Origin: Tricholomella constricta
Lineage: Eukaryota; Basidiomycota; Agaricomycetes; Agaricales; Lyophyllaceae
Assembly (NCBI GenBank): GCA_013368375.1
Contig: JAACJP010000032.1
Span: 1 to 64,000 of the forward strand
Length of the DNA stretch: 64,000 nt
Reading direction: 5' to 3'
Below, piece by piece: positions 17,694-60,650 of the stretch. The notes beneath the pieces are model-generated. The model made no database searches. It was not told the origin of the DNA and saw only the letters and a list, made by a program, of their open reading frames with translations. Both the position numbers and the translations under genes were made by a program. Each line of letters starts with the position of its first letter. Position 1 is the first letter of the stretch.

Positions 17694-17914
17694 TGTAAGG
17701 GCGCTTACTATCTTATCGACTAATTTGATCTAATCGTATCTTATCGACACGATTACGCTATTGTTTGGCAACACCGTCCAGTGTTGCCTATTTAATCCTT
17801 TACATTACATAATTAAACAGTAGACCTTGTACACCTATACGTAGCAATCGACAGACTTGTCAAGCTTACGTCTAGCGTGCACAGCAAGGTCCCCAATCTT
17901 GTAACCCCGTTACA
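17694..17914 (+). repeat. 5' LTR of element A
   Basis: TGTAAGGGCG..CCCGTTACA. It contains a hairpin GGCAACAC/GTGTTGCC at 17767-17788 that has changed, compensated equivalents in the 3' LTR and in element F. Confidence 0.97.
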
Positions 17915-17927
17915 TTTTTTTAAGCTA
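17915..17927 (+). promoter_or_regulatory. T-rich putative primer-binding region of element A
   Basis: TTTTTTTAAGCTA follows the LTR directly. The same motif stands in the same place in B (38091-38103, minus strand) and, as TTTTTTTGAGCTA, in F (60651-60663). It does not begin with TGG, as a site primed by a tRNA 3' CCA end would. Confidence 0.6.
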
Positions 17928-18022
17928 CCTTGCTTTCTATTGCTGCGTACCCATGACGTTACGCAGAACCACATTCCATTTAGAACACCCATCATCAAAA
18001 GAACCCACGAGACCCAGACCCG

Positions 18023-21000
18023 ATGACACCAACTCCCACATCTGGAAAGAGCCGAACTCCGGTCCTCGAGGATGCGCTCACAGCGCATCCTCCATCACAA
18101 CTTCCACTGCAACCAGTGGAAGTCGGATCAGTCGCTGGTGGACAAAGTCCACCAGCGCAGAATACACTAGGATTAGAATCAGAGGAACCTTGGCCGATAG
18201 CAAGCACCAATGTGCCGGGGAGCTTGGCCGACGAATTGGCCAGGTCACATCGACCTGGCCACACGGCAGGAAGCAGATGGCCAGACAGCTGTCTGTCAAG
18301 TAGAGCGTTCGGGGCGTCCACCCTGAGCATAGTCAAGATGGAGTCGGACGAAGACAACTTGTCCGACCCCGAGGCCAATGAAGAAGAAGCCATCGACAGG
18401 GAATTGCTGGCGCTAAAAGTGAAGCAATTCTGGGACACCACCGATGTTGTTAGCGAACATCGACGAAGACGACTAGAGGAACGAGCGGATAGGCTCGTTC
18501 TACGATCAACCGGAGCACAGTCCGTTGGAGAAATGGTCGCACAGGAGTATGCCGACCGATACTTGGAAGTGCTGTCCGTAGTAGTTACGGAATACAGGAA
18601 GAAGTACCCTAAGGGAACTTCGAATTCAGCAGTCAGTTCGATCGCTGGGACTCCTATACCTAAGAAAGCTCCGCTCAACAAAGGAAAAGGTCGTTGGGAT
18701 GACCTTTTCACTCCTCAAGCAGTGGCCTCTGGATTGAACCAGCCTCTTGATGAGGCTGCCATGGCAGTATCTGCGCTGCATCAAGCGCGCCAGTTAGGAG
18801 AATCTGACGACGATTATCGTCGTCGGGCCGCGGCAGCGAAACGCGAAAGAATGACTCGCGAAGAGCACCTTGCGACACCACAAGGTTCCCGATGGGCCCC
18901 TGTTAGTGAGTCTACATTTAGACCCACCCACTGAGCGTAAGGACACAAATTCGCAACCAGCTGGCACTGAAAGTGTGCCAGCTATTCAAGTACCTCCGGA
19001 GGCTAAGGATGGCCGTGTTCCATTAGCGAAAGAGTGGAACAACCGGATCGCTTACCAGCGTCTGAGAAATGCTGATCTATCACGGAGCAAGTTCACGAAT
19101 TATGACGACCAAGGAGTCGTCTTTGAAGGACATATGCCTGTGGATGAGATGGCGAGGCAATGGGCCTCGCAAACTCAAGGTTCGGATGGTGGGTTGGTAA
19201 CTGGATTGGAAGCCGTCGAAAAGAATAATTCGACGGCGATAGCTAACGGTCGTCGAGACATGCGGGTTCGAATAAGTGAACCCGCGGAATATGCGCAGCC
19301 CCGAGCTCAGACTCGAGGCTATTCAATGCCTGCTCCGATCCGCCGGAGTCAATCAATTGCGGATGGAATACATGCTGCCGGAGAGCAGCATAAAACTAAG
19401 ATGCATGAGCGATTGCATCAATTAATGCACGAGCGCTTGTCGGTACGACTGTCGCTTCCGGACGGGATGAAATCTCGGCGTGCAGACTCAAAGTCCGTAG
19501 GCACTTATAGTGGAAGTGCAAAGTTCGGCGACCTTGAAGAATGGCTGTCGAGCCTCGTCGTTATGCTGGCAGTGAGCCAGTTTGGAGGAGAAGAACGCGA
19601 CCAAGAGCGCGTTCTGATAACATCCGAGTTTCTCGATGGCGAAGCTCGAAAGTGGTACAATCGCCACGTTATACATGTGAACCGTGAGAAGCAGTTCTGG
19701 ACGTTTGAAGACGTCGTACTTGGATTGTATGACCGGTTCGTGCTACCCTCAACCATGCAAGATGCTCGTAACGACTTTAATGCCGTTACTTACTCGGCGA
19801 GCAAAGGAATACAAGGTTTATATGATGACCTTGTGGACCATGCCATGAATATGGCAGCAAGAACGGACGATTGGACGTTCTTGGAGAAATTCCTCAAGAC
19901 ACTTCCGCGTGAGATGCGGAAGGCATTATTCGATGACGGGCTATCACCCGAAATCAACACGGCCCAAGAGTTCCTAGCGGTGGGCTTAGCACACCAAGCC
20001 ACCCAGAAGACGGCTGATTACTTTGAGCGGAACATAACCGCTCAGCGAAGTCAACCGAGTCAAATGCGGAAACCAGATGGGGGGCGAGTAAACACCCCAC
20101 AAAACAATTTCAACAGGCCTCGACGTGTGTATGGCGCACTTAATGAAAAACCATACGCCAAGCCAGCGTATCAGGATCAACCGGGACGTGGAGAGCAAAA
20201 GCCCCACTTCGAAAAACCAGCGATGAAGACGGGAGATCGTCCGCGTTACAATCAAACCAAAAACCACGATCATCACAACCACCCTCCGGGGGAAGTGTGC
20301 TTTAATTGTGGAAAACTAGGGCATTTTGCAAAAGATTGCAAACAGCCCAAGAAACAGCGAGTGTTCCTACGGGCCGCACGTACAGCGGCACCTGACGCAG
20401 CAAGTGAGGCGGACGATGAAGATACTTCTCCCGAGGACCCGGACGGACGAGACAATGGACGCCCTGATACAGAGGCGGACAATGAAGACGAAGGCGATGA
20501 GTTCGTAGACATGGAGGTCTACGAAAATGAATACTATGCTCGGGACGATGAGACCGAGCGTATGTTTGCAATGACAGAAGTCATTGCATCAGAAGAACGC
20601 AATGATAAACCACCAAGTCGTAAAGTGAAAGTGCGGACGGGTAGGGACAAGATTGCTCGTCCCGTAGTTCTGATAAAGGACAAGGAGTGCCTTGTCACCT
20701 ACATTAACGTAGGTGGACATGAGGCTTGGACCCTCTGGGATTCCGGGAGTATGACTACCGGACTTACGCCGTCATTCGCTCAAGTGGCCGATATTCGAGT
20801 GTTTCCGTTGGAGGATCCATTAATCCTCCAGCTCGGAACTAAAGGAAGTCGGGCCACAGTAAATTTTGGCACGACGGTGGAAGCCGTTCTTCCAGGGTTT
20901 AAAGGCAAGGTTTACATGGACCTTGCTAACTTTGATCGATACGACGTGATTATAGGCACGCCGTTTATGCGCGCAAACAACGTCGTGCTGGACTTTAACC

Positions 21001-21110
21001 GTGACGAAGTTGTCGTCAATGGAGTCGCTACACCAGCGACTAAAGTAAAAATGGAGGATACCGATGGCCGAGTTAGACGCCATCGGTCATTGGAGAAACG
21101 AAGAGAATGA
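18023..21110 (+). CDS. Element A gag-protease
   Basis: Structural protein and protease. The leader from ATG 18023 has a domain with FWDTTDVVSEHRRRRLEERA and QEYADRYLEVLSVVV, shared with element F. At about 18920 a tandem ACCC duplication shifts the frame; the downstream frame (open from 18870) continues. The gag domain includes EFLDGEARKWYNRHVIHV and DVVLGLYDRFVLPSTMQD. A CCHC knuckle CFNCGKLGHFAKDC lies near 20300. The retropepsin has LWDSGSMTTGLTPSF (about 20730-20775) and YDVIIGTPFM. It ends at TGA 21108-21110, in the same frame as pol. Confidence 0.9.
21108..21110 (+). promoter_or_regulatory. In-frame UGA between gag-protease and pol, followed by CUA
   Basis: The stop reads GAA TGA CTA AAA. 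The same frame is open through 25010. Element B has a TGA at the homologous place (34867-34869) followed by CTC. UGA followed by CUA is the known leaky stop context. A readthrough signal is inferred. Confidence 0.55.
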
Positions 21111-24100
21111 CTAAAAGTCACAGTAGAAGATGGTGATGATCCTGATAACGAGGGTAGGCCGATAAACAGCCTACCGAAGGATCACCCAGCACTTCTATTA
21201 TCCGATGAAGAGTTTCAAGAAACTCTTAAGGAGGGGGATAAGCCACCTCCGAAGAAGAGAAAACCCCAACGACAACAGCAGAAGGCACAAAACGAGCCTT
21301 CGAACGAACGAGCACGGACTCACGAGCCATGCGAAGAACGCCAGCGCGATAATGAAGCGCGTAAGACGAGCGGGGCCGATAAGGATATGGAATCAGAGCC
21401 GTATACGAATGCGAGTAATCGATCATTTTGGGATAGACCAAATCCACACCCACAATATGAGTGGATGTTCGACCCACAGATGCCGCAAGAATGGAACGCA
21501 GTAATAGCATCAATGCGGGCTCACGAAGGAAGAAATGTAGGCACGCGAGGACAAGCATACCGAAATCCACGGCCTGAGGAAGTATCGGAGCCAACGGAAA
21601 TGAATTTTCCGGTGAATATACAACGGGCTAAATGGCCGTTGTATCGGTTACCAGTGAAGGATGAGAGTGACTTTGCTCTCGTAAAACTACGAGCTAGGTT
21701 TGATGTTAAACCTAGCAATAAAGACACAGCACACATTCGCGTTGCAAGAACGGTGAACGGAAAAGGTAAGGCACCCAATGGAGGCCTTACCGCGGAAGAT
21801 TATCCACGACTTCGCCAGCAATGGCATGACGAATTCGAAGATATGGTGGGTGGTACGAAACAACAGCTACCACCCTGGCGGGAAGTCAATCACGAGATTA
21901 CTCTCATCGACGATGAGAAACAATACCAGTACCACGCACTGAGGTGCCCATTGTCCCTTCGCGAGGAATTCTACGCGAAGGTCAATCGGTATACAGACTC
22001 TAAATGGTGGGAGCCTCGTTCGGTAAAGCAAGCAGCACCGTTGCTATGTATCCCGAAAAAAGACGGCTCCCTGAGAACACCCTTGGACGCACGGCAGCGT
22101 AACGACAACACGATCAAGGACGTTACGCCCTTGCCAGACCAAGAAATCATTCGCGAGGATGTTGCCAGAGGGAAGATACGATCAAAGATTGACTTAACGG
22201 ATGCGTACGAACAAGTACGCATCCTCGAGAAGGACGTACACAAGACCGCCTTTGCAACGATAGCGGGAACGTACGTTAGCAACATAATGCAGATCGGGGA
22301 CTGTAACGCCCCCGCAACATTTCAACGATTAATGACGTCAATTTTTCGGGACGTCATTGGGAAGTTTATGCATGTATACTTGGACGACATATTCATATTC
22401 TCGAACTCCATCGAAGAACATGAAGATCATCTTCGAGTAGTGTTCGAACGATTACGCGAACAGTCCCTTTATTTGAAGTGGAAGAAATGCGAACTATATT
22501 CGGATCGCGTCGATTGCCTTGGTCATATAATCGACGACCAAGGAATTCACCCCGACGCCGATAAATTGGCACGGATTCGCGATTGGAGGATTCCACGGAA
22601 TTACAACGATATACAGCGACTCGTTGGACTGGTTAATTATCTGGGTCAATTCCTCCCAGATATATCCGCGTACACTGGGCCACTAATGGCGATGACCGAG
22701 AATGGGTCGCCATTCTATTGGAGACCAATTCATCAACGATGCTTTGAAATGATAAAGCATATATGTTGCACGACGCCAATTATTCGGCCTATTCAACCGA
22801 AGACAGACAAACCAATTTGGATTATATGTGACGCCTCCAAGTCAGGCGCCGGTGCGATGTATGGTCAAGGACCTACATGGATCCAAGCTCAGCCGGCTGG
22901 ATTCATGTCCAAAAAATTCACGAATGCACAGCAGAATTACGCTGTGCATGAACTCGAAACCTTAGCTATCCTCGAAGCATTACTTAAGTGGGAGGATAAA
23001 CTTGTGGGTTATAAAATCCACATCATTACCGACCACAAAGCCCTCGAATTCTTTAAGACCCAGGTGAATTTATCACCTAGGCAGCGTCGATGGATGGAAT
23101 ACATGTCGCGATTTAACTTCGACATTACCTATGTGAAAGGCGAACTGAATAAAGTCGCCGATTGTCTATCGCGATACTTCGAGAGCGATAACCATCACGA
23201 TCGTTACGACGTCCACGACTTCGTAGCTGCCGATGCTAGAATCGATCCTACTGGTGAAGATCTACCAGTACCACGATACCATGAAATCGTGGAAAAAGTA
23301 GTTGAGATTCGAACGATGAAAGACGTAGAAATACGTCGAAGCAAGCGTCTTCAAGAACGCCAGGAGGATCGAGATGTCGAAGCTCAGATAATGGAGGCTG
23401 CGGCACCAAGTATCGCATCCGGACCATCGTCACACCTTCAAAAAAGCCAGAGGCCAACCGAACGGGAACGTACGGTCGGAGATATGGTCCTCGGAAGGGA
23501 CACAGTTGCCCCTCCCCCAGACAAAACGGACGAGAAGATCCGTAACGACGTTATCCTTGGATACCCAAAGGATAAACTATTTTCAGTGATTCTCACTAAC
23601 CCAACGGACTTTCGTACGTTCACCACGAAAGACAATCTTATTTGGACCACGAACACTATAAATGATAGCGTTCTATGCATACCGCGAGAACCCGAGATCA
23701 TCACGTCAATTGTTGAGCAAGCCCATAAAACTATGGGCCATTTCGGTGCCGAACGGACTACTGAATATATTCGACGATGGTATTGGTGGCCATCACTAGC
23801 CACGACCGTTCGTACGTTTTGTAAAACGTGCGAGTATTGCCAGCAGATCAAGACGTCAAATCAGAAACCGTTAGGGAAACTACATTCCCTGCCAGTACCC
23901 ACTAAGCCTTGGGACTCTATCGGAATGGACTTTATCGGTCCATTTCCAGAATCAAAGGGATATAACTATCTATGGGTAGTAATTTGTCGTATGACGAGTA
24001 TGGTGCATATGATACCCATACATACGACGATGACGGCAGCCCAATTATCATGGGTATACCTACGGGAGATCGTCAGGTTACATGGCCTGCCAAGCTCGAT

Positions 24101-25010
24101 CGTAAGCGACCGAGATTCTAAGTTTACTTCGCGCTGGTGGCGCGAACTACATAAATTATTAGGAGCTAAGCTTCTAATGTCGACATCTTTCCATCCTCAG
24201 ACGGATGGACAGACGGAGCGAGCCAATTGTAGTATTGGCCAGATATTTCGCGCCGTTGTAAGGCATGACCAAAAGGATTGGGTAGATCGTATACCCATGG
24301 CTGAGTTCGCAATAAATGCGAGCGTATCGGCTACCACCAAGTTCGCTCCATTTGAGTTGAATGGTGGATACATGCCGTCCATGTTGAAAGAGATACGCTC
24401 AGACAGCGTAATACCAAAGGGAATTCGGGAATACGCTGAACGCGCATTGCAGAACATAGCGGATGCGCATGACGCTATAATCGAAACGCGCGTATTTCAA
24501 ACGCGCGAGGCAAACAGGCGTCGATCCACTGGTCCGGAAATAAAGGGGGGTGACTTGGTATATTTATCTACCAAGAACTTGAACCTTCCCAAGGGACGCG
24601 CCCGGAAATTATGTCCGAAATTCGTCGGGCCCTACAAAGTATTGAAGGCCATGCCAGACACGTCGAACTATACGCTGGAATTACCTACGGCGCTTATGGA
24701 GCGTCGAATACATCCAACATTTCACATATCGCTGTTGCGCCCATACTACGCAACAAACGATGCAATGTTCCCTAATAGAACTCACCCGGAGCCCTATGAT
24801 TTTGGGGCGCCGGACGATCACGAATGGTTTGTCGAAGAGATTTTCGGCCATAGATGGACCCAAAATAATAAAGTGGAATACCAAGTTAGGTGGAGTCTAG
24901 GTGACACCACCTGGGAATCACACAACAATTGTAACAAGTTAGCGGCATTGGACCGCTACTTGGAATTGCAAGGGGTGGGCAGCGCATCGAGGTTGCCGCG
25001 ACGAACCTAG
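21111..25010 (+). CDS. Element A pol: RT, RNase H, integrase, chromodomain
   Basis: Copies and integrates the element. The frame is open from the UGA; the first ATG is at 21387. Counted from that ATG: reverse transcriptase with HVYLDDIFIF near residue 330; RNase H with DASKSGAGAMYG near 480, ELETLAILEAL and IITDHKALEFF; integrase zinc module HKTMGHFGAERTTEY..CKTCEYC near 780-820; catalytic region with GMDFIGPF, SDRDSKFTSRWW and TDGQTERANC near 845-945; chromodomain with EWFVEEIFGHRW and YQVRWSLGDTTWE near 1140-1200. No stop or frameshift, and all catalytic residues I looked for are present. Confidence 0.95.
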   Translation, partial: LKVTVEDGDDPDNEGRPINSLPKDHPALLLSDEEFQETLKEGDKPPPKKRKPQRQQQKAQNEPSNERARTHEPCEERQRDNEARKTSGADKDMESEPYTNASNRSFWDRPNPHPQYEWMFDPQMPQEWNAVIASMRAHEGRNVGTRGQAYRNPRPEEVSEPTEMNFPVNIQRAKWPLYRLPVKDESDFALVKLRARFDVKPSNKDTAHIRVARTVNGKGKAPNGGLTAEDYPRLRQQWHDEFEDMVGGTKQQLPPWREVNHEITLIDDEKQYQYHALRCPLSLREEFYAKVNRYTDSKWWEPRSVKQAAPLLCIPKKDGSLRTPLDARQRNDNTIKDVTPLPDQEIIREDVARGKIRSKIDLTDAYEQVRILEKDVHKTAFATIAGTYVSNIMQIGDCNAPATFQRLMTSIFRDVIGKFMHVYLDDIFIFSNSIEEHEDHLRVVFERLREQSLYLKWKKCELYSDRVDCLGHIIDDQGIHPDADKLARIRDWRIPRNYNDIQRLVGLVNYLGQFLPDISAYTGPLMAMTENGSPFYWRPIHQRCFEMIKHICCTTPIIRPIQPKTDKPIWIICDASKSGAGAMYGQGPTWIQAQPAGFMSKKFTNAQQNYAVHELETLAILEALLKWEDKLVGYKIHIITDHKALEFFKTQVNLSPRQRRWMEYMSRFNFDITYVKGELNKVADCLSRYFESDNHHDRYDVHDFVAADARIDPTGEDLPVPRYHEIVEKVVEIRTMKDVEIRRSKRLQERQEDRDVEAQIMEAAAPSIASGPSSHLQKSQRPTERERTVGDMVLGRDTVAPPPDKTDEKIRNDVILGYPKDKLFSVILTNPTDFRTFTTKDNLIWTTNTINDSVLCIPREPEIITSIVEQAHKTMGHFGAERTTEYIRRWYWWPSLATTVRTFCKTCEYCQQIKTSNQKPLGKLHSLPVPTKPWDSIGMDFIGPFPESKGYNYLWVVICRMTSMVHMIPIHTTMTAAQLSWVYLREIVRLHGLPSSIVSDRDSKFTSRWWRELHKLLGAKLLMSTSFHPQTDGQTERANCSIGQIFRAVVRHDQKDWVDRIPMAEFAINASVSATTKFAPFELNGGYMPSMLKEIRSDSVIPKGIREYAERALQNIADAHDAIIETRVFQTREANRRRSTGPEIKGGDLVYLSTKNLNLPKGRARKLCPKFVGPYKVLKAMPDTSNYTLELPTALMERRIHPTFHISLLRPYYATNDAMFPNRTHPEPYDFGAPDDHEWFVEEIFGHRWTQNNKVEYQVRWSLGDTTWESHNNCNKLAALDRYLELQGVGSASRLPRRT

Positions 25011-25210
25011 AATGTGGCGCGGTCATGTGATCACAGCGATCAGAAAAATTACATAACCATCAAAAGTTATGACAGAAGGTTAAATATGTTTTGGCGCTAG
25101 GACGCGCAACCAAATTTTCAACCAACAACCACAACATGTACCCAACCGCAGGAGCAAATTAAAGCAACGACGCGACTCGGGGCGGCGACAGCCGCACCGA
25201 CTATCAAAAT

Positions 25211-28108
25211 ATGGCCTCGGGATCGAGTCCAAAAGGGGAGGAGGTGCAGGGACGCGCGGAAAGCGCGCCCCCGCCCCCAACCTATATGGGCGTGCAGCCC
25301 CAAGCATTTCAATACCCATCGGTTGGCCACATGAGCCAACTGCCCCACCAGGGGCAACCGCCCCATCAGGGGCAACAATTATACCCTATGGTTGGCCACA
25401 TGAGCCAACCGCCCCACCAGGGGCAACAACCACAGACGGGTGGGTTCTACCCACCGTCGATGGCATATCAACATATGCCATCCATGCAGAGCTTCATGGG
25501 GTACCCACCACTGACGTGGTACCCCCAAATGCCCGCCCCAACCGTACCGCAAAATACGCGGTACAACGAGTCAGAGAAGATGGAGGTGGACGACCAAAGT
25601 CGTCAAAAAACACCTACTCCACCGGCGCAAGTGGCGCGCAGCGAACCGGCGCGGCAATATGTCGCACCATATGCAGACGAACAAAGAGGGTCGTTTGTGT
25701 CGAGTTCGCGGAGGCCGGCAGACGATCGCGCAGCGTCGTCTGCGTCAAGTTCGAGGAGACCATTTGCAGACGATGGTCTCCTTTCGTCTATCTTGGACCG
25801 ATTGGAAGACGCGGGTATTCACCGCGAGTTTTGTGATTTCTTGGACGACGGGATGGCGCAGCTGGTTGTAACCCAGCTGCTTGATGCGTACAATGGAGTT
25901 CGCGCGGACTTGAGACGCGTGAAGGCGAGAGAGTCGGCCATGGCTGAGCAACTCAGCCTGGCAAAAAAGCGACCGGCAGTGGCGTCGCCAGATCGCAGGG
26001 AGGGACCATTGTCCCGACCCATGAAAAGACTGCAGACCGAGGTGCGGCGAGAAGAACACACCTTATATGAACCCAGGCGTCAGGAACGACGCCCGGAACA
26101 AGAGTATCGGCGGTTCGACCGCCACCCCGACCAGGAAGTGTGGCGTGATGAGCGCCCACTTGATTATGGTCCTCAACGAGAGGAGCGTCGCGAGGACCGA
26201 GGGACGCGTGAAGTGCGTCCCTTACCGGCTCGAGAAGTTGAGCGAAGGGCGTCGACATCATCGACATCCGCGGTGCAGGCACCGCAACAGCAACAGATAG
26301 CGGGAGCATTACTCCCACTACTGACCCCGGGAGAAAGCCGGGTACGGAACCCGGAGAGAGGTTCCCAAAAGAAGGAACCTGTTGGCAAGTATACCTTGCC
26401 GGCACCATCCCCTGCACCACCCACTACGATGGTGCAGCCCCCATCGCCTCCGCCAAAGGGCAAAGGCAAACAAAAGGCGTCTGACCCGTACGCCGAATTT
26501 ATGGACGAGTCGGGCTACGGCGAGTCCTCCGACGACGAGAAACCCGTCAGCAAGAAGAAGGCTGCCAGGCAGAAGCAGCATCGCGAGAATATGGCTCGCA
26601 AAGCTGAGAAGGAGGCGCCGGGACGGATCCCTGAAGAGCTTGGGGTGGTCTTTATCAACGGCCACCACGAGCGGGACAACCGCTTCTGGGATATGGTGTC
26701 GCGGACGGTATATGTGTCGTCCGCCCAGAATTGTGCCTTTGCGCTAGGCACAGCAGCTCGCGTCTCAGAGAGCGAGCTAGGGACGGGACAAAACTCCCGT
26801 CCCTCAGATGGACGGCTGTATGCCGTCGCACCACGTGGGTTCCCAATGAACCCCCGTGAAGTTGATCAGCTCTATGAGCTGATCAATAACCGACGCCATG
26901 GGGTGAGGGATGAAGAGCGGGCCGAGGCCTTTATGCTCTTCAGAGAATTCCGTCGGATCACCCTGTCGGTCGCGCCTCACTTGCGCGACCGAGCCATGGC
27001 TTGTGCAGCCATGGGCGAATTCCGAAGCGTCTCACGACCGTTCAGTGAACGGTCACTCATCTGGAATGCCCCGGTCATTAGACGGCCGGATAAAGCATTC
27101 GAATATCGGCATGACAAGCCGACACGAGGAGCTGGTCTCCCCCAACCCGGCCCAGCTCATGCATTGGATGTCGATCATTGGTGTCGACATATGATTCACC
27201 ATGGGTGTATTGGTTCTAAGAACCAATATGGAGGTATCGTCATGGACTACCGGTTCCGCGTTCATCGTCACGGGACCTGGGGATACTTACTGGCGAACAT
27301 ATTGTCGCCAGTAACTCATAGTATGCGGGCATGGTTTATGCGAATCTTCGCAACCATCACCGCACGGCCATACTTCTATGCAGAAGCGGTGGCGGCCCAT
27401 AACGAGGCCAACCCTGATCGGCCGTTCACGCCGATTACCGGACCCGAGGTTATTATCCCTCAGATCCAACCTACCGCTCCCGAAGGGCGGCTGACGGAAC
27501 AAGGTGTCCTACAACACCTTATTAACTGTGGTATTCCAATTAGTTGGATAAACCACAGTTATACTTATGGTCTACACTATTTAGACCATAACTACTCTAC
27601 TGCAGGTCCTCATAAGGACCTGTTCCACAATGTTGACGACGATCGCGTGCGTCGACTCGATCAATTGGGTGTGCGACCCGCCATTCCGGAATGGGACGGG
27701 TGGTACCATCCTACCACCGACGACATCACGCGCATTCAAACGTTAATGCGCTTGGAGTTTCAGAACGAGGGGCTGGATTGTTTATCCAGTGTGGAATGGA
27801 TGTTTGTGGGTGAAGACCCACATTTCCGAGAACTCCGTGTTCGGAGAGGGGAGTTTCCCCCTCCGGACCTGCACACTCCCGCTCCATCGGGATCGACGTC
27901 TACCAACGTCGAAATGGCGGACCCGGCGGCACTCACACCTGCCCCCGCGACACCTTCCACAGTCGTGGCAGCTCCAATAGGAGCTACCGAAACCCAAGTG
28001 GACCCCGTGTCGGCCCTCACAGGGCCTCTATCACTGGCAGTGATTACCACTAGCCAGGGTCCGGTGGAATCCAACCCCACCGACCCCGACACAGTGATGG
28101 AGTCATAG
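25211..28108 (+). CDS. Element A third ORF, 965 codons, function unknown
   Basis: Lies 200 bp after pol on the same strand and inside the LTRs. The N-terminal third is Pro/Gln-rich with repeated PHQGQ blocks. Then a helical part (SILDRLEDAGIHREFCDFLD), a basic Arg/Glu stretch, and a conserved C-terminal region (WINHSYTYGLHYLDHNY, NVDDDRVRRLDQLGV, PAIPEWDGWYHPTTDDI). Element B has a homologue in the same place. There is no membrane segment or signal peptide, so it is not envelope-like, and no RT, protease or integrase motif. Function not recognised. Conservation in two diverged elements suggests a real gene. Confidence 0.85.
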   Translation: MASGSSPKGEEVQGRAESAPPPPTYMGVQPQAFQYPSVGHMSQLPHQGQPPHQGQQLYPMVGHMSQPPHQGQQPQTGGFYPPSMAYQHMPSMQSFMGYPPLTWYPQMPAPTVPQNTRYNESEKMEVDDQSRQKTPTPPAQVARSEPARQYVAPYADEQRGSFVSSSRRPADDRAASSASSSRRPFADDGLLSSILDRLEDAGIHREFCDFLDDGMAQLVVTQLLDAYNGVRADLRRVKARESAMAEQLSLAKKRPAVASPDRREGPLSRPMKRLQTEVRREEHTLYEPRRQERRPEQEYRRFDRHPDQEVWRDERPLDYGPQREERREDRGTREVRPLPAREVERRASTSSTSAVQAPQQQQIAGALLPLLTPGESRVRNPERGSQKKEPVGKYTLPAPSPAPPTTMVQPPSPPPKGKGKQKASDPYAEFMDESGYGESSDDEKPVSKKKAARQKQHRENMARKAEKEAPGRIPEELGVVFINGHHERDNRFWDMVSRTVYVSSAQNCAFALGTAARVSESELGTGQNSRPSDGRLYAVAPRGFPMNPREVDQLYELINNRRHGVRDEERAEAFMLFREFRRITLSVAPHLRDRAMACAAMGEFRSVSRPFSERSLIWNAPVIRRPDKAFEYRHDKPTRGAGLPQPGPAHALDVDHWCRHMIHHGCIGSKNQYGGIVMDYRFRVHRHGTWGYLLANILSPVTHSMRAWFMRIFATITARPYFYAEAVAAHNEANPDRPFTPITGPEVIIPQIQPTAPEGRLTEQGVLQHLINCGIPISWINHSYTYGLHYLDHNYSTAGPHKDLFHNVDDDRVRRLDQLGVRPAIPEWDGWYHPTTDDITRIQTLMRLEFQNEGLDCLSSVEWMFVGEDPHFRELRVRRGEFPPPDLHTPAPSGSTSTNVEMADPAALTPAPATPSTVVAAPIGATETQVDPVSALTGPLSLAVITTSQGPVESNPTDPDTVMES

Positions 28109-28484
28109 GTCGGGGAGACAACTTAATCCCCCCGTCAACGAACCGACCTCGACACGCAGGAGGTATCGTCGGGACGACCGCCATTGTCAGGTGCAGACCA
28201 CCTTACTCCCGAGGAGCAACCCGCAGGTCGCGTACTCAAATATACGCAACACCGGATGTCCTCAATCCCATGCCACCTCGGGCGGCACTTGGAGGCCGTG
28301 TAGTGGAACTATTGTCTCCACTATGTATTCGGTCATGAATACGTACCAGTAATACGTATTTCTTTGCAAGCGATATTGGGTGTAGGTCGCCGGGACCTAC
28401 ACCCTCCCTCTTGCCTTAATTTTATTATTACTTATTGCATTACTCCCTGGTGAAGATCGCTACTAGCGATCTTAAAGGGGGGTA
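28109..28484 (+). other. 3' UTR of element A with polypurine tract
   Basis: No ORF. AAAGGGGGG at 28474-28482 lies two bases before the 3' LTR and should prime plus-strand synthesis. Confidence 0.75.
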
Positions 28485-28705
28485 TGTAAGGGCGCTTACT
28501 ATCTTATCGACTAATTTGATCTAATCGTATCTTATCGACACGATTACGCTATTGTTTGGCAACACCGTCCGGTGTTGCCTATTTAATCCTTTACATTACA
28601 TAATTAAACAGTAGACCTTGTACACCTATACGTAGCAATCGACAGACTTGTCAAACTTACGTCTAGCGTGCACAGCAAGGTCCCCAATCTTGTAACCCCG
28701 TTACA
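28485..28705 (+). repeat. 3' LTR of element A
   Basis: 221 bp. It differs from the 5' LTR at one A/G in the hairpin (28558-28579) and one A/G near the AAGCTT motif. CCATC follows at 28706-28710. Confidence 0.97.
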
Positions 28706-30460
28706 CCATCATAGAGTACAGTAGCTTCGCGGTCACGTCCGGTGATGAATTTCATCGACGTGATGTCGTATCCTACAGGGTGTAGGCCGCGAGCGTGCGC
28801 AGTGTCCAGTCCTCGCTCTTTCTCACAGTCGAGTAGTACGTGGAGTCTAGCGATATCATCGCGGGTCGGCTGTCGCCATCCATCCCATTGAGGAATGGCC
28901 GGGGGTATCCCGTAACGACATAGCCGAACAAGTCGGTCGTCGTCCACATTGTCGTGTAGTGTACGATCAATTGTGGTTCCCGTATAATGCGCATCCAAGT
29001 AGTGGAGGCCGTAGGGATATGCATGATCAATCCAAGCGACGGGTAGTCGATTGGCAAGAAGAGTACGGATTACGTCCGTTTTGGTTAAGTTGGCGGCATG
29101 CTCCTCAGGAAGAGCTAAGCAACCAAGGCTTGCCGTGGAAGGTAAGTGGTCAGGGATGCGATCCAATGGGTGAAGGGCATTCCACGAGTCCACCAAACGC
29201 ATTGTGGCATTCGGGAGTACCATTGATGTGTAGTACGCCAATAGTATCTGGAATGCGTCCGACGAATGTCTCGAAGTTATACTTCAAGTGTTCGTTGGCT
29301 TCTCGGTCTGCAGCAAGGCGGTCGCGGCGGACTGAGGCGTTGTGCTTCATTCGTAAGCTACGCTCGTCGACGGTTTCGCTTGCTGGTTCCTCCTTTAGCG
29401 TACCGATGGTAGAGGGCTCTACAGTCTCTTGCATCGGTTCATCGGCAGGCGAGCTAGCATCGACCAATCGTACATCGTCGACGGGCATCTGCTCGGGCAC
29501 CGCAAAGGCCTGACGTATCGTAAGTACAATACGTCCAGCATCAATGTGCGGAGGTACGCCAAGAGGAAAGGGTACCTCAATAGTGGGGATCACTAGAGGT
29601 ACTTTGGCGGCGCTTGTGGGCGCAGATCCTATTTCTTGCGCTGGAGCCGTGGACTGCACCGATGTGGGTGCGGTCTGAGGACCCTGCGTCCGACTACGCT
29701 TGTCGGTATAAGGCATCGTGTTCGGCGATGCGGGGCGCTTACGTAGCGCGCGTTGCAGCTCCTCGGTGATGTGGCGTTTAGCCATAGTTTGCTGGTCAAC
29801 TTCTCGTTGAAGGCGGTCAATGGTGTCGAGTAGTTGTCCTATCACGACCCTTGCCATTCCATCATGGATAAAGTCGACTACAAAGTCGGGTGCTACTCCG
29901 ACGGTCTCGAGGCGGTTGAATATACCGTCTGGGTTTGTTCCCATATCAGCATGTGGTGCGTTGCATGGCGCAGCATGCGTACCTCGAGTATTTCCGTGAG
30001 AGTTCGAGGGAGTTCCTTCCTTCTCTTCGACGGCTCGTTCACCCCCCTTTGGGCGGTGTGGTTTGTTACCACCACGCTGTTGTGAGGGGCGTCCCATCTC
30101 GACGCTTCTGTTCTTAGCATCAGGCAGCTGTCCAGGCTCGAGTTGCCCTGCTCCATGTCCATCGACATCCATTGGAGCGTGCAGGCGCTCAACGGCGGGT
30201 CCAGGAGCAGGCGTCTCGCCTGTGTTGGAAGGATTCTGTCCTTCGAACGGCTGATAGCTCGGTACCATTGTTGGCTGGTATGCTATCGATCCAAACGACA
30301 GTGGAGACTGTGCTTGGTTTTGCGGTTGCGTAGTTTGTTGCGCATGTTGTACGCGAGGTGAATTACTCGTAGCGCTGCGGTTATTGCGACCGCGGCGTCC
30401 ACGCGTTCCTCCCCCTCTTGAGTTTCCTCGAAAACTCAGTGATTCTTGTCTGGACGACAT
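28706..30460 (-). pseudogene. Third ORF of element B (main part), deleted and frameshifted
   Basis: Homologue of the 965-codon ORF of element A. From ATG 30460: an Arg/Gly start (RGGGTRGRRGRNNRS), then NRLETVGVAPDFVVDFIHDG, KRHITEELQRALRKRP, and RIPDTIGVLHINGT, which aligns with RIPEELGVVFINGH in A. The next roughly 200 residues of A are missing here. The frame shifts near 29200-29240 and picks up at VAWIDHAYPYGLHYLDAHYT, DNVDDDRLVRLCRYGI and PAIPQWDGWRQPTRDDIARL. Element A cuts it at 28706. Confidence 0.85.
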
Positions 30461-30601
30461 TAGGTGTGATTTCTAGTGATAGTAGTAGTGCACAAGGGGG
30501 CAGAGAGAAAATTTTTTGCTCCCCCGATCGGAGCTCCACTCGATCGAAGCGATCGAGTCCAGCCACGCTGTGGCTGTGTGGCACACATTGCATGCCACAC
30601 C

Positions 30602-33600
30602 TCAGCGCAGCTTTGCGAGCTGCGAAATACGCTTCACCCCCTGGAGCTCGAGGTATCTATCGAGAGCTGCCAGGGATTCGCAGTGCTCACGCGGCTCCCA
30701 CGTAGTGTCCCCCAGGGACCATCGAACTTGAAATTCAATGGCGCCCTCGGACCACCTATGTCCCAGAATCTCCTCGACGAACCACTCGTGGTCGTCTGGT
30801 GCACCAAAGTCGTAAGGCTCTGGGTGCGCTCGATTCGGGAACAGTGCGTCCTCCGTAGCGTAATACGGTCTCAGCACGGACACATGAAACTTCGCGTGTA
30901 AGCGGCGCTGCTGAAGCGCGGAAGGCAGTTCCAACGTATAATTTGACGTTTCTGGCTCTGCCTTCAAGACACGAATAAGGCCCCACGAACTTGGGGCACA
31001 ACTTGCGTGCTCTACCCTTTGGAAGGTGTAAGTTCTTCGTAGATAGGTAAACTAAATCACCAGTGCTAATCTTAGGATCATCACTCCGGCGTTTATTCGC
31101 ATTCAGCGCTTGGAATACGCGGGCCTCGATAATAGCATCGTGGGCTTCCGCGAGATTCGAAAGGGCTTGTTCTGCGAACTGGCGAATACCCCGAGGAATC
31201 ACATTATCACTGCGAATTTCCTTGATCATGGAGGGCATGTATCCGCTGTTGAGTTCGAATGGCGCGTATTTGGTTGTCTCCGATATACTCGCATTAAGTG
31301 CGAACTCGGTCATATCTACGCGATCGACCCAGTCTTTCTGGTCGTGGCGCACCACAGTACAGAATATTTGTCCGATACTGCGGTTTGCACGCTCAGTCTG
31401 TCCATCCGTTTGAGGATGAAACGATGTGGACATGAGCAGTTTTGATCCAAGGATCTTGTGAAGTTCTCGCCACCATTTGGAGGTGAACTTCGAGTCCCTA
31501 TGATGGAACTAGGAAGACCATGCAGACGAACAACCTCGCGCATGTATATCCAGGACAATTCCGACGCGGTCATGCGCGTATGTACTGGAATTAAATGCAC
31601 CATGCTCATCATGCGGCACATAATAACCCACAGGTAATTATAGCCTTTTGATTCAGGGAACGGGCCTATAAAGTCCGTTCCAATGGAGTCCCATGGTTTA
31701 ATGGGCACTGGTAGCGAATGTATTTTGCCAGCAGGTTTTTGATTCAAACCCTTGGCTCGCTGACATGACTCACAAGTTTGACAGAACTTGCGAACTTCTG
31801 CGGTAATGGTGGGCCACCAGTACCAGCGTTGGAGGTATTCCGTGGTACGCTGGGCTCCAAAGTGTCCAACGGACGTATGTGCTTGTTCTATGAGTTGAGT
31901 GATCAATTTACGATCACGAGGAACACATAGAACTTCTACGCCGGCTGGATTCGTTGTCCAAATTAACGCATCTCGGTGTGTAAAATGCGTGAATTCACCG
32001 GGTTTGTCCATTATTACCGTGAACAATTTATCGGTTTTGTAACCTTTCTGTACTACTTCCAGGAATGAAGCATCGCCATTCCGTGGGTGTGGTTCTGGAC
32101 GCGGCGCAGGTGTGGGCTGTTGAAACAATGCCTCGCCCAACGTTTGTTCGCGTTCTGAAGGAGCCCCATCCGGTTGTTGACCGGTCGAGGATTCAGACTG
32201 TACGGTAGGTTGCTGAAACTCTTCCAGGATGGCGGCTTCGATTTCTCGATCCTCACGCCGTTCCTGGAGGCGGCGACTACGCCTCACTTCCACGTCCTGC
32301 ATGGCTCGAATTTCAATAACTCGTTCAGCCACTTCTTGCAGTCGTGAAGGTGGGAGATCCTCTCCATCTGGATCTATTCGCGCATCAGCGCGTACATAGT
32401 TGTTGACGCTCTGCACCTCATTAGGTGCGTCTCCTTCAAAGTAGCGGGATAAGCAATCAGCTACTTTGTTCAGTTCTCCTTTTACATATGTAATGTCAAA
32501 GGTGAACCGAGACATATAATCGTTCCAGTGTCGTTGACGTGGTGACAGATTTACTTGAGTTTTGAAGAACTCTAGCGCTTTATGGTCTGTGATTACATGG
32601 ATATTGTAACCAACCAATTTATCTTCCCATTTTAATAAGGCTTCTAGAATCGCAAGAGTTTCGAGCTCGTGTACAGCATAATTTTGCTGAGCGCTCGTGA
32701 ACTTCTTCGACATGAACCCAGCGGGCCGACATGTCTGCCAAGTGGGTCCTTGGCCGTACATGGCTCCGACGCCGGTCTTCGAGGCATCGCATACACGGGA
32801 GGCAAAGCTTGAGGCAGTTGAATTTCAACTGCCGCAAGAGCAGTTGGCGTGCTGCTACCATCCTTTCAGATTATGTAACATGGCCAAATATAGCCGATGT
32901 CACCTGATTAAACAGACTTGGCTGTTCAACACACCATGGGCAATAGTGGTCTTTTTACTGCAGAGGGTACACACACAGATAACTGTCGGCATAGTGGAAA
33001 GAAATGGATGGGAGCGGGTGGGAGCAGGAGCAGCAGATAATCTCTGGACTCGCAGCATCACGATTCATCGAGACAGCTACATTTGGCTATATTACATAAT
33101 CCGAGGAGTAACTGCGAGACAGCTGCGTACCGACCGCGCGCTAACTGCTCTTGCGGCAGTTGAAATTCAACTGCCGCAAGCTTTGCCTCCCGTGATATAA
33201 GCCATATAGGGTCTTTATTCTTAACGTCTATAGGCTGTATGACTGGTGTCCTACAACATATTTGTTTTATCATTTGAACACACCGATCATGGATCCGTCT
33301 CCAATGAAACGGCAACCCGTTTTGCGTCATGGACATGAGGGGTCCCGTATACGCAGTAATATCAGGTAGGAAGTTACCCAAGTAATTTACGAGTCCGACG
33401 AACCGCTGAATATCATTATATGATCGCAGTGTTCGCCATTTGCGTATGCAGCTTAGTTTATCGACATCAGGGTGTATACCGCGATCGTCGATAATGTGTC
33501 CAAGGCAATCAATGCGTTCAGCGTATAATTCGCATTTCTTCCATTTCAGATACAAAGAAGCAGCTCTGAGTCTCTCGAATACTATTCGTAGGTGTTTCTC

Positions 33601-34827
33601 ATGCTCTTCTATCGATTCCGAAAAGATAAAGATATCATCCAGGTAGACATGCATGAATCTACCAATCAAGTCTCGAAAGGTTGACGTCATGAGTCTCTGG
33701 AATGTGGCAGGTGCGTTGCAGTCACCTATCTGCATTATATTGCTGACATAGGTGCCGGCGATAGTCGCAAAGGCTGTTTTATGTACATCCTCTGGTCGTA
33801 TACGCACTTGCTCATAGGCGTCGGTTAGATCAATTTTTGATCTAATCTTCGCCCGCGCCACATCTTCCCGAATAATTTCTTGATCGGATAGTGGCGTCAC
33901 GTCTTTCACGGTGTTATCGTTCCGTTGACGTGCATCGAGTGCAGTTCGTAGCGAACCATCTTTCTTCGGTATGCACAGTAGTGGGGCTGCTTGGCTGACG
34001 GACCGTGGCTCCCACCACTTAGCATCCACATAGCGGTTTATCTTCATGTGGAATTCTTCTCTCAGCGAATTTGGGCACCGCGGTAAGTGATAGTGATACC
34101 GTGCATTCTCATCGATTAAATGAATCTCATGGTTAACTTCCCTCCACGGTGGTAACGTGTTAGGAGTTCCGTTCACCATATCTTGGAATTCATCATGCCA
34201 TTGCTGACGTAGGCGGGGATAATCTTCAGTAGTGAGTTTACTCTTGATTTTTATATTCCCATCCTTTCGTCGCTTCCCTTCCGCGGTTGGTTTCTCATAC
34301 CTATTGCGGAGGGCTTGTATCCGTTCTTCCGTCTCATCTGGTACTTCCAGTCGTACTTGTCGTGACTGTGGCATACTTCCTGTAGTACTACCAGCTATTG
34401 TCCCGACGTATACTGACAGTTTGGATATCTCGTCTGGGCGTGCATCGCGATATATCTCGCCTTGAGGCGCTTGGACTCACGTATATGCATGCATGGACGC
34501 AATTACCTTGTTCCATTCAAATGGCATTCGAGGATCGTACGCCCAATCGACGTGCGGATGTGGTACAGGTCGATCCCAAAATGTTCGCTTGGGTTTCTCC
34601 TGCGCCACTTGTGGTGACACTTGTGGTTCCGGTAGTTTTACCTTCTCCTCAGTGCTATCCAAATTATCGATTTGCGAAGATTTGGGTTCTTTGTGCTGCA
34701 TTTTGTGCGTTTTGGCTTTCTTTTCATACTCGGTTGACCCTTTCTCCCCCTGAAGAGTATCTATATACTCTTCCTCGCTCATCAGTAGACATGGCGCGTC
34801 CGACGGAAGACCATGCATTTTGTGCAC
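30602..34827 (-). pseudogene. Element B pol: RT, RNase H, integrase, chromodomain; broken
   Basis: Close homologue of element A pol. RT has HVYLDDIFIF; RNase H and integrase follow (YWWPTITAEVRKFCQTCESC, GTDFIGPFPESKGY); chromodomain EWFVEEILGHRW. Lesions: TGA at 34477-34479 near the start; a 401-bp MITE at 32794-33194 in RNase H; a deletion of about 7 bp near 31490 that removes the SD of the expected integrase SDRDSKF motif and shifts the frame; another frameshift near 30965. It ends at 30602. Upstream, 34828-34866 is open in frame to the TGA that ends gag-protease. Confidence 0.9.
32794..33194. mobile_element. MITE inside element B pol
   Basis: 401 bp with inverted ends CACGGGAGGCAAAGCTTG, continuing into GGCAGTTGAA and its complement, so each end is itself a palindrome. 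A 3-bp ATA duplication lies at 32791-32793 and 33195-33197. Removing the insert and one ATA restores the RNase H frame. CAC ends with a 3-bp duplication are reminiscent of CACTA-type elements, an inference. No ORF inside. Confidence 0.85.
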
Positions 34828-34866
34828 CTCTTCCTCCGGAACGTCTTCTACTGTGACTCGTGGGAG

Positions 34867-37414
34867 TCAATCCCGGGGTTTATCCGTGGTACAATAGCGG
34901 GGCAGCTGTCCATCAGTATCCCGGAGGTCTACCTTCGTGGCTTCGGTTGATACACCGTCGACCACAACTGTATTCGTCGCGAAATCAAGGATAACTCCAT
35001 GCTTTCGCATAAACGGTGTACCGATAATCATATCATATCGGTCAAAGTTTGCTATATCGACATACAGCATTTCTTCAGATCCGTGTGTTTTAACTAACGC
35101 ATCAGACCCAAAGTTCACTGTCGAGCGACTTCCAATCGTTCCCAATTGCAGCGTTATCGGTGCATCCAACGGATACACGTGCAGTCCCGCTACCTGGGAG
35201 AATGCCGGGGTTACGCCTGTAGTTGTACTCCCCGAGTCCCATAGCGTCCACGCGTCGTGTCCGCCTACATTGACATATGTGGCCAAACACTCCTTGTCGT
35301 CGCGCTTATGCACTGGGCGAGCCTTAGCTACTTTCGACGCGCGAAGATGTACTTTGCGCATCTTTATCTGGCGAGTTTCATCCAACGGTAATTCCGTTAT
35401 CACCCTCAGGACTTCAGTCTCGCTGTCTCGGGAGTAGTAGTCATTATCATAGACATCGACCTCAATGAGTTCATCGCTGTCGCTGTCTACCAACGACTCA
35501 GGTGGATTATCCACTTCATTAGCAGAGGTATGTCCACTCTCGTCATCAGCCTCATTCTCCTGATCCATTTCCGAATCATCGTCCTCTTCATCAACTGCGG
35601 TCCGAGCTGCTCGTATCTGAGCACGCACGGGGTACGGTTTCTGTTTACATTCTCTCGAGTAATGACCTTTCTTTCCGCATTTGTAGCAGATGACATCTGC
35701 CGCTGGTGACGGATTCGGTGTCGGAGATGAATGCAGTTGGGGGCGTTCCAACTGTCTATTGGGTGGCGCACCCGAGTTCGGGTCGGGGCATGCTTGCACT
35801 CCCACCTTTCCTCCTCGTCCACGCAGTGGCGTAGCCACCACTCTCGCGTGTAGTCCTCCTGCTAAGGCGGACTTGCGAATGAAAGTGGTACCGATTCGCC
35901 CACCTCCGCGGGGCCTCGAAGATGTTACTTCGGGATTCCGGCGCGAGCGACGGCGTGAGTTTCGAGCAAGGTAGTGCGCAGCTGTCTTAGAGGCAGACTC
36001 ATACGCCTTCGGCTCGGAGACAAACTCATCGACTGTATTTATCTCAGGTGACAATCCACCTTCCTTAATTAGGGCGACAAGCATATCTTTGGGTATACCT
36101 TCCAGGAAGGTATCACGCACGGTGTATTCGTCTGGGAACACAGCCATATTTTGTGCGTGGTCCATGAGCTCGTCATAAAACCCTTGAACTCCGATGCTCT
36201 CATTATAAGTAGCATCGTAGAAGTCCTCTCGTGCATCCTGCATTGTTGACGGCTGTACAAAGTGATCATACAATCCAAGAATGACGTCTTCAAACGTCCA
36301 ATGGCATTGACGACGGTTTACATGAACGACGTGGCGCTGGTACCATGTCTTAGCTTCTCCTCTGAGAAACTCTGGTACAACGAGCACGCGTTCATGGTCG
36401 CGTTCGTCGCCACCATACTGGCATGCAGCTAAATGAACGCACACGTCCGTTAGCCACCTTTCAAGGTCGCTAAACTTGGTTCCTCCAGCGTATGGAGTTA
36501 TAGTTTTGGACGCGTCAGATCGCCTCAATTTACTACCCTCGGGAAGTTGCAGGCGTGTACCGAGTTGTTCTTCTAGCAGCGCTTTCAAGCGTACATGCAT
36601 AGAATCTCGGTGTTGTTCCACGGCTTCAGCGACTCCAGGGTTTCGGGAAGTTGACCGCACTTGCGGAGGCATCGAGAACCCACGCCCAGGGGTTTCACTT
36701 GGTCTACCTGGGTTTCGTGATATAGGGTTCACGACGCTCATTCCCCTACCGCGTCCACGAGCATTGGTAAAATGCGTACGAACTACGGGAGTCTCATGAG
36801 GAGGTCGATCTCTAGCAAATGTTTGCTGTTGATCACGTCCCTGCAGGTGCTCATCGTAGGGGGCACTCTGCACATTATTATCCTGTTCGTGAGGTTGTCC
36901 AATCGACTCGAAATAAATGCTCTTCATTTGGTCGACGGGCTGACGTCCGATAAAGATCACTCCCTGGTTGCTGCAAGTCTCGATCCCGCTCGCGCTGGAG
37001 GGCGACTCTGTCTGCCCACGAGTCTGCCATTGGGTATCGACGGGACGCATTCCCAGGGACTTGTATCACAGGCGGTGATGTCTCAGTCGTGAACCGTAGT
37101 GTTTGAGCAGGCGCAGGCCTTTCCTCAATCGGTTTGACGCCGTCGTGTGTTTCATCCACACGATCCTCGATTTTTACAGGCGTGGTGAGCACAGGGCCGA
37201 TGCTGTCCGCTGCTTGTGTTGTTCCTACTGTTGCTTGCGGAGCTTTCGGTGTCGAAGACCTCGATGCTTCCAAGACAATGGCCATAGAATAGTTATCTAT
37301 TTCGAAGCGAATGCCTTCGATAACTAGCTTTACAAATTCGATACTGTTCGTATCAGGCTCCGTGTCCATGATCGCACAGTGTACGTAGGCGGAACCTAGC
37401 GCGTTCTCATTCAT
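34867..37414 (-). pseudogene. Element B gag-protease
   Basis: Two frames: 36878-37414 carries the leader ending near RVALQRERDRDLQQPG, and 34867-37050 carries the rest, so one frameshift lies near 36950. Gag has EFLRGEAKTWYQRHVVHV and DVILGLYDHFVQPSTMQD; a CCHC knuckle CYKCGKKGHYSREC; an acidic linker; retropepsin with TLWDSGSTTTGVTPAF and YDMIIGTPFM. It ends at TGA 34867-34869, after which the same frame stays open into pol. Confidence 0.85.
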
Positions 37415-37459
37415 CTGAGTACGTCGACTAGCGTCTGGGACTATCGACTGGTATTCTGA

Positions 37460-37987
37460 CTAGTAGAGGTGCACCTGGCGCTTAAGGAGGGGCGAGAACC
37501 TGAAGATGTTCAGGGTCCCGTTGTCCGATTCTGCCGTCGAGCTGACAGGCGATAACACCCATCGTCGAAGGTACGCACTCGTAACCGACTGGTTATCCGT
37601 ATTGGCGTGTACCGGGGCTTGTACCGAAGACTGTGGCACAGCAGTGGGGGCCGGGGAGGCAGCGTACGCGGCATACGCTTGTTGCAGAGCCAATCGTACG
37701 GGGCCATCGTCCGATGCATGTCTAAGACTCGCATCTTCAGCAGTTTCGACCCCCAGAGTGCCTAACCTTGCAGCTGGGCGCTCTGTGGCGTGCATTGATA
37801 GTAGCTCCAGGCTACTTACCGCTGTTGGTCCCTCTGCTGCTGCTACACCTTGCCCGACTTCGTCCGAACGACGTTGAGGCGGCACATAGGCTATAGGAGG
37901 TCGTGGTACTGGCGGATCGACGATAGATTGTATTGTTGGTGTGTTTTCAGAGCTGGTAGCGCTCGGTGGCGCTCGGTTTGGATCCAT
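37460..37987 (-). CDS. Element B N-terminal ORF
   Basis: A 175-codon frame rich in Ala/Pro/Ser (MDPNRAPPSATSSENTPTIQ at the start) about 115 bp inside the 5' LTR. It may be the start of the gag leader, separated from 37414 by a frameshift or stop at 37460. No domain recognised. Confidence 0.5.
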   Translation of the reverse strand: MDPNRAPPSATSSENTPTIQSIVDPPVPRPPIAYVPPQRRSDEVGQGVAAAEGPTAVSSLELLSMHATERPAARLGTLGVETAEDASLRHASDDGPVRLALQQAYAAYAASPAPTAVPQSSVQAPVHANTDNQSVTSAYLRRWVLSPVSSTAESDNGTLNIFRFSPLLKRQVHLY

Positions 37988-38090
37988 CGCAGATAGATCT
38001 TCGTTTCAGGGTTGTGGTGATGGTGATGGCGCTGATAAGCGAGTCGACGTCGAAGATAGAGAGCAGTTAAGCAGATAGCAAAGCTGGGTC

Positions 38091-38103
38091 TAGCTTAAAA
38101 AAG
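38091..38103 (-). promoter_or_regulatory. T-rich putative primer-binding region of element B
   Basis: CTTTTTTAAGCTA on the minus strand, directly inside the 5' LTR; matches the same site in elements A and F. Confidence 0.6.
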
Positions 38104-60455: not shown

Positions 60456-60650
60456 TGTAAGGACGCAGGTCCATACTGGTCACCTGTGTTGGCATTGTTT
60501 GGCAACGCCTTCGGCGTTGCCTATATCTATTGTTTATATCTATTATTTTAAGTAGATCGTCGCAACTTCATGTACAACTAGCAGAAAAATGACATCTGGT
60601 CAAGCTCGGTTGTAGTGTGATTCGCAAGGTCGTCCTGTAGCACCGCTACA
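60456..60650 (+). repeat. 5' LTR of element F
   Basis: 195 bp, TGTAAGGACG..CCGCTACA. Contains GGCAACGCC/GGCGTTGCC at 60501-60521, at the same place as the hairpin of the element A LTR but with paired base changes. Confidence 0.75.

Follow-up and report, generated by a model that had tools for sequence, protein, structure and literature searches.

Two elements in the window (the whole 64,000-nt stretch analysed here, positions 1-64000 of its contig in a genome of 44 Mb and 118 contigs), the Ty3/gypsy LTR retrotransposon A and its partner F, are studded with very small perfect hairpins, roughly one per hundred bases, that rest largely on silent codon choice and have been lost and re-formed time and again, a pattern indicative of some unexplained force on genomes of this kind. 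Our preferred reading, adopted tentatively and with considerable reserve, is that selection of a diffuse kind favours hairpins that are short and strong in the single-stranded intermediates.

Element A lies on the forward strand (17694..28705) and was recognised by its LTR pair, Pfam domains and hairpin count. The LTRs (17694-17914 and 28485-28705) are 99.1% identical, begin with TG and end with CA (TGTAAGG...GTTACA), and the internal 10,570 nt hold 98 perfect short hairpins, or 9.3 per kb. Four ORFs were found on the same strand. The first two are parts of gag: one at 18023..18934, the densest, with 11 hairpins in the 846 nt scored, and one at 18870..21110, with a zinc knuckle (CCHC Pfam match) and 21 hairpins in the 2,175 nt scored (18936-21110). 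The pol ORF (21387..25010; 28 hairpins, 3.3 expected) encodes, in the order of its Pfam matches, reverse transcriptase (RT), RNase H and integrase, and a Tf2-1-like SH3 domain (SH3_Tf2-1) is also present. The last, ORF3 (25211..28108), encodes 965 amino acids and holds 30 hairpins when scored in pieces and 31 when scored whole, against 4.0 expected. Gene content is that of Ty3/gypsy elements with a Tf2-1-like integrase SH3 domain, from which A departs in its hairpin saturation, in the additional 965-residue ORF and in having no visible TGG-type tRNA site. No Pfam protease match was obtained for an aspartic protease in the four ORFs.

Hairpins were defined as perfect inverted repeats with arms of at least 7 bp and loops of 2-15 nt. 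By this measure the coding span of A (18023-28108) contains 93, and the five 2-kb windows of 18001-28000 contain 21, 19, 17, 14 and 22, against 2.0, 1.4, 1.3, 2.1 and 1.0 in dinucleotide shuffles. Codon shuffles that preserve both protein and codon usage (100 for each ORF, made in pieces of 250 codons) yield 10.7 for the four ORFs of A, where 90 are observed (91 vs 10.5 in the phage comparison below); the ratios of observed to expected are, in ORF order, 11/0.88, 21/2.6, 28/3.3 and 30/4.0. The hairpin excess in A is real and strong, and the claim of a first-pass annotation that A is saturated with short perfect inverted repeats is borne out. All ten hairpins that it cited exist with the same centres, six with the arm lengths given there and four with longer ones (18100-18123, arm 10; 18237-18261, arm 10; 20809-20830, arm 8; 25459-25482, arm 10).

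The single ORF of F reaches 23/3.1 under the same codon shuffles. Other coding sequences in the window lie near expectation, including another Ty3 pol (0/2.1), two copia ORFs (2/1.4 and 3/1.9) and a LINE (0/0.9); a 1.2-kb ORF at 46836-48074 gives 3/0.6 and one at 48769-49596 gives 0/0.6. The three ORF pieces of element B, a broken relative of the sister family A', give 4/1.5, 3/0.7 and 2/1.4, summing to 9 vs 3.6. Stems of 9 bp with one mismatch are nonetheless raised in B (18 vs 5.4) and in A' (33 vs 9, four pieces summed). B and A' are thus not entirely devoid of the trait, a correction to the annotation's view that the pol of B shows no such density by eye; its expectation of an excess over shuffles in A and F only agrees with the large excess found in both, except for the weak excess in B and A'. 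Over the genome loci fetched, A carried 1911 hairpins in 206 kb (9.28 per kb), F 364 in 45 kb (8.07), B 33 in 14.6 kb (2.27) and the remaining sequence, with the hairpin-bearing satellite L063 among it, 143 in 83 kb (1.72), values that demonstrate uniformity among related copies rather than independent support. Copies of the window (L001, L011 and L039) were omitted from these densities, and the overlap of L049 with the window was kept.

An artefactual origin, whether through base composition, codon usage, local repeats or the assembly, has a negligible probability. Matches by complement without reversal are mildly raised in A (14 vs 6.3), as such an origin might require, but it is ruled out by the codon and dinucleotide shuffles, equally sized direct repeats (8 vs 10.1) and mirror repeats (9 vs 7.6) show no enrichment in A, and copies of A on many contigs have a similar hairpin density.

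The inverted repeats of A and F behave as hairpins, as indicated by an enrichment that jumps at 3-nt loops and fades beyond a total length of about 33 nt. In counts pooled from A, F and another F lineage, loops of 0, 1 and 2 nt occur at 0.98, 1.8 and 1.6 times expectation and loops of 3-8 nt at 5.5-9.6 times, and the excess vanishes at loops above about 15 nt; it grows with arm length, being 1.1 for 4-bp arms and 75 for 11-bp arms. The longest arm seen is 12 bp, and arms of at least 9 bp have loops of up to 11 nt, except for two with loops of 19-24 nt (0.4 expected). The total length of the hairpins in excess ranges from 16 to 33 nt and peaks at 20-27 nt. Loops are A-rich (0.363 vs 0.297 in chance hairpins), and arm composition equals that of chance hairpins. 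Hairpins are not regularly spaced but close to randomly placed (coefficient of variation 0.92), and the 45 four-base loops show no marked tetraloop motifs (GNRA 3 vs 1.8, UNCG 0 vs 0.7). An analysis of loop-closing pairs was discarded, as truncated stems were mixed in.

In the ORFs, the hairpins rest largely on synonymous choice, as had been proposed from the sequence at first reading. This follows from the roughly 8-fold excess over codon shuffles and from the lack of a surplus of amino-acid changes in the arms of pol: in conserved pol columns, changes specific to A are not more frequent in arms (4/77) than outside (45/656). Changes specific to A' in the same columns number 5/78 and 28/639, respectively. 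An arm pair of A at 22199-22224 differs from A' at third codon positions on both sides. The trait is, however, not confined to coding sequence, to which the annotation had assigned it: besides the four ORFs, untranslated parts carry hairpins at ORF-like density, namely the 3' untranslated region (UTR) of A (28109..28484; 4 in 376 nt), that of F (7 in 656 nt) and the A LTR. No hairpins occur in the 200-nt gap between pol and ORF3 of A or in the 132-nt leader of F.

Element F (60456..64000, forward strand) is a gag-like, single-ORF element with A-like ends that is cut by the end of the window; its 3' LTR starts at about position 64162 (in L049), giving a length of about 3.9 kb from LTR to LTR. 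Its ORF (60772..63504, 910 amino acids) is 41% identical to the first ORF of A over 88 residues, and F and A have the LTR start, the leader and the polypurine tract in common; F is plausibly mobilised by A-type proteins. Among the 103 RT-related places scored genome-wide, 69 at 93-100% amino-acid identity constitute family A, and 34 at 83-86% belong to A' (represented by L066 and L067), a multi-copy family that has retained numerous open frames. A' resembles A in its homologous pol (72% amino-acid identity) and in having an LTR hairpin and a leader fold-back at the same places, but it contains 2.1-2.6 perfect repeats per kb compared with 9.3 in A, only a weak excess of imperfect stems and a sense-biased folding gain. 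Element B (28701..38100, reverse strand; 20 repeats in 9.4 kb, a weak excess) aligns to A where A' does, and near-identical strings are common to B and A'.

Comparison of copies showed that individual hairpins turn over at near-constant density. In four F lineages that are 84-91% identical, 46 hairpin centres were found, 19 of them in one lineage, 13 in two, 10 in three and 4 in all, and yet each lineage holds 20-24 hairpins. Covariation was examined in 14 directed comparisons (10 of F, 2 of A ORF3 and 2 of A pol; homologous and hence not independent, with L062 kept), in which 32 of 53 two-sided changes of stem pairs remain Watson-Crick, compared with 4-8 of 32-37 when the partner was slid by 1-2 bases. 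One-sided states in these stems comprised 117 G.U, 118 A.C and 86 others. A null of random re-placement gave 6.6 hairpins where 24 were observed between L039 and L047, and 7.9 where 42 were observed in ORF3; such nulls favour selection but are compatible with a decaying relic and were not used as proof.

In a polarised test, changes on terminal branches were taken regardless of hairpins. Among 264 such changes in F, hairpin losses numbered 13 vs 30.7 expected (0.42-fold) and gains 13 vs 3.8 (3.4-fold), so that loss and gain balance. Neither effect was seen among 81 recent changes in A pol (losses 8 vs 9.7, gains 1 vs 1.2), and the force is thus not visible among young A copies. Of the 15 stem-completing changes in F, 11 affect codon position 1 or 2; as to the arm, 11 lie on the 3' side and 4 on the 5' side, a difference that is not significant. 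Two-sided changes on F branches numbered 3 at arms of at least 7 bp and 7 at arms of at least 6 bp. Stems with two differences had them on the same arm in 17 cases and on both arms in 13, those with three differences in 2 and 6, respectively (5 more stems, in which a difference was two-sided, were excluded); no clustering of changes on one arm was seen among them.

When ascertainment bias is avoided, arms prove modestly conserved. With arms defined in a third lineage, divergence in F was 0.097 in arms vs 0.138 outside at all positions and 0.144 vs 0.173 at third positions; in A pol, third-position divergence was 0.071 in arms, 0.104 outside and 0.065 in loops. Defining arms in one of the compared copies was rejected, as this drops changes on the defining copy's own branch and biases the contrast. 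When arms were required to occur in at least 30% of copies, common variants affected 50 of the 1680 sites in arms and 460 of the 8321 sites outside, and singletons 33 and 226, a count that is partly biased; the noncoding satellite L063 was dropped from it and L061, L062, L064 and L065 were mostly masked as too divergent.

Some hairpins are kept in place by eye although their arms have changed on both sides: those in the LTR and just after it in A, F and A', and the one before the polypurine tract in A and F. The LTR hairpin of A (17767-17788, in the 5' LTR at 17694..17914) has the counterparts GGCAACGCC TTC GGCGTTGCC in F and GCATTACC TTTT GGTAATGC in A', and the last hairpin of the A 3' UTR (28453-28473), whose arms are changed in the F counterpart, directly abuts the polypurine tract at 28474-28482, which precedes the 3' LTR (28485..28705). 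This lineage thus uses hairpins at its control points, and in A and F they occur throughout.

In RNA viruses, the pervasive folding of coding sequence has long been a puzzle, and the RNA phages MS2 and fr were analysed as controls under the same measures, with folding computed in 120-nt units in overlapping windows. The likeness to these genome-scale structured, positive-strand RNA genomes is that the coding sequence is far more stable than its codon shuffles over the full length, with folding gains, in kcal/mol per 120 nt, of -7.3 in A, -8.4 in F, -9.3 in MS2 and -7.1 in fr. This similarity in gain speaks for ordinary, genome-wide secondary structure of the sense transcript as the cause. MS2 and fr, however, reach it with mostly imperfect stems and few perfect repeats, about twofold over expectation (5 vs 2.7 and 4 vs 1.7), compared with 7- to 9-fold in A and F. 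Perfect 8-bp stems relate to stems with one internal G.U as 96:14 in A and F together, 3:13 in MS2 and fr and 1:6 in A' (overlap of the windows makes nominal p-values too small). A and F are strand-neutral, their sense minus antisense differences in gain being 0.08 ± 0.80 and 0.10 ± 1.29, respectively, whereas the sense strand gains more in fr (-2.66 ± 1.26, clearly), in A' (-2.19 ± 0.99) and, with less certainty, in MS2 (-1.59 ± 1.61). Single defects in otherwise complete stems (L030 left out) comprise 57 G.U, 65 A.C and 32 others and hence no surplus of G.U, although the cross-state count of G.U is weak in MS2 and fr as well (22 vs 17). Polarised changes are divided: F repairs A.C over G.U defects 10:3 and its new defects lean to G.U over A.C (28:20), as selection on RNA predicts, while new defects in A pol lean the other way (A.C over G.U, 12:5). 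The GNRA and UNCG counts given above also speak against this cause. The pattern of A and F is unlike ordinary RNA structure, and we consider this explanation quite improbable; the part of the first-pass annotation that invoked selection for RNA structure fits badly in its sense-strand version, with no strand asymmetry and no G.U surplus.

Two forces can yield exact, strand-neutral, local hairpins at a steady density, namely diffuse selection and self-templated correction by reverse transcriptase. According to the latter, the A-element enzyme, while copying, lets the nascent strand fold back and template its own extension across a near-palindrome, turning stem mismatches into exact complements, after which purifying selection on the protein would leave mostly silent changes in pol. 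In favour of such correction, pairing is exact irrespective of the type of mismatch (one-sided states as listed above) or the strand, F gains fall mostly at codon positions 1 or 2, strong hairpins occur only in A and F with their common LTR start, leader and polypurine tract, density is equal in ORFs and most untranslated parts, turnover is rapid, and the 3-nt minimum loop and limited total length suit a fold-back intermediate. Quasi-palindrome correction and short template-switch mutation are known as single events, and share with A and F the conversion of near-palindromes into exact ones locally and blindly to mismatch type; A and F would require saturation of a whole genome by this process, and patches of change on one arm are absent. 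Further evidence speaks against it: there is no surplus of multiple changes on the same arm, symmetrical correction predicts about 9 two-sided changes in F (estimated from the deficit of losses) where 3 or 7 are seen depending on arm length, losses at 0.42-fold are unexpected if correction runs either way, A-rich loops are not predicted, and the 3'-arm bias of completing changes is not significant. Gain of exact repeats above chance, as template switching would produce, was seen in F and not in A pol. We regard mutational drive, the main rival of selection, as doubtful, and, slightly more so, its full form in which the A-type enzyme steadily rewrites near-palindromes into exact ones in its own genome and that of F, the hairpins being the steady state of a templated drive rather than conventional RNA structure. 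Of the two causes offered in the annotation, template switching thus accounts for exact Watson-Crick pairing but lacks its expected signature of several changes on one arm, and the cause has been narrowed, the annotation's interpretation as a whole being partly supported. A slim possibility, ranked below ordinary RNA structure, is that the hairpins are armour against silencing, in which small RNAs cut from either strand of a hairpin of about 20-27 nt would fold on themselves, with the target sites closed as well. The peak of total length at 20-27 nt and strand neutrality agree with this, but A', which resides alongside A in multiple copies with numerous open frames, has few hairpins, and defects other than G.U and A.C, at 21% of single defects, are no scarcer than the spectrum of changes outside arms suggests (22-31%).

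Selection is favoured over drive, and ordinary RNA structure and silencing armour are rated less likely than either. A and F carry an element-wide array of local hairpins with arms of 6-11 bp, loops mostly of 3-12 nt and total lengths of about 16-33 nt, which in the selection reading would be maintained much as codon bias is, with single hairpins expendable and turning over while their number is held. The selection would act on packaged RNA, on cDNA or on both, possibly through proteins common to A and F, for instance in compaction by Gag or during passage through reverse transcription, and A' would escape the requirement by using its own proteins. This reading is supported by the excess and hairpin geometry, by covariation, by turnover at near-constant density, by the depletion of losses and enrichment of gains in F, and by the lack of an amino-acid cost in pol arms, the A-rich loops, the position-conserved hairpins and the absence of one-arm patches. 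It is opposed by the null gain and loss test in A pol, by arm conservation that is modest and in A pol equally low in loops, by strand symmetry and the missing G.U surplus, both contrary to selection at the RNA level, and by the near absence of hairpins from A' in the same nucleus.

Pervasive structure appears in A and F in a cleaner form than in RNA viruses, as discrete, perfect and countable hairpins, and the presence in one genome of many related copies, of the partner F and of the hairpin-poor sister A' makes function and mutational drive directly testable. Either outcome would be surprising: if selection is the cause, a cis-requirement is written in silent sites along 10 kb; if drive is, a polymerase imprints palindromes on whatever it copies, and the copying habit of an enzyme sculpts the silent sites of a whole genome. 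No description of such a hairpin-saturated retrotransposon appears among the literature titles listed, a limited survey that does not establish absence from print.

Several features of A and its surroundings were recorded besides the hairpin array. By eye, no TGG-type tRNA primer-binding site was seen after the 5' LTR in the leaders of A, F and A', which have a T6-7 tract there instead, followed by a fold-back (AAGC..GCTT in A, 17915-17945; GAGCT..AGCTC in F, 60651 onward; AAGCT..AGCTT in A', L067 at about 365-400). Primers other than tRNAs pairing with TGG are known in some Ty3/gypsy families, and the leader with its T tract and fold-back suggests an unusual primer for minus-strand synthesis. 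A second AAAGGGGGG tract, identical in its nine bases to the 3' polypurine tract, lies at 24542-24550, at the integrase end of A pol; it recurs in L022, an A2 copy, and may serve as a central polypurine tract. Divergence between the A1 and A2 subfamilies is uneven, at 10-12% in pol at 22.3-22.9 kb, about 5% on either side and 17% in ORF3, which suggests recombination between lineages. ORF3 matched no Pfam family and no PDB relative at E up to 1, its predicted structure was unusable (mean pLDDT 31.8), and the candidates scored included two relatives, one from Lyophyllum atratum at 60% identity and one from L. shimeji at 42%, the latter annotated as fused to a tannase; the host is accordingly taken to be a lyophylloid mushroom. 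In IMG/VR, 4 stretches fitted a pattern, none of them a relative.

Polarised substitutions in the F lineages L039, L044 and L047 are A+T-biased (C>T 76 and G>A 66 vs T>C 22 and A>G 30), and a tandem array of repeat units, detected by self-matches of the window, lies upstream of F at 59245-59856. Positions 1-3701 of L063 form a noncoding satellite array, unrelated to A and F, that has strong inverted repeats of its own. Within the window, positions 8001-10000 contain 7 inverted repeats against 1.7 expected, and two long perfect hairpins at 9617-9643 (arm 12) and 9851-9874 (arm 11) lie in a stretch without a self-match in the window.
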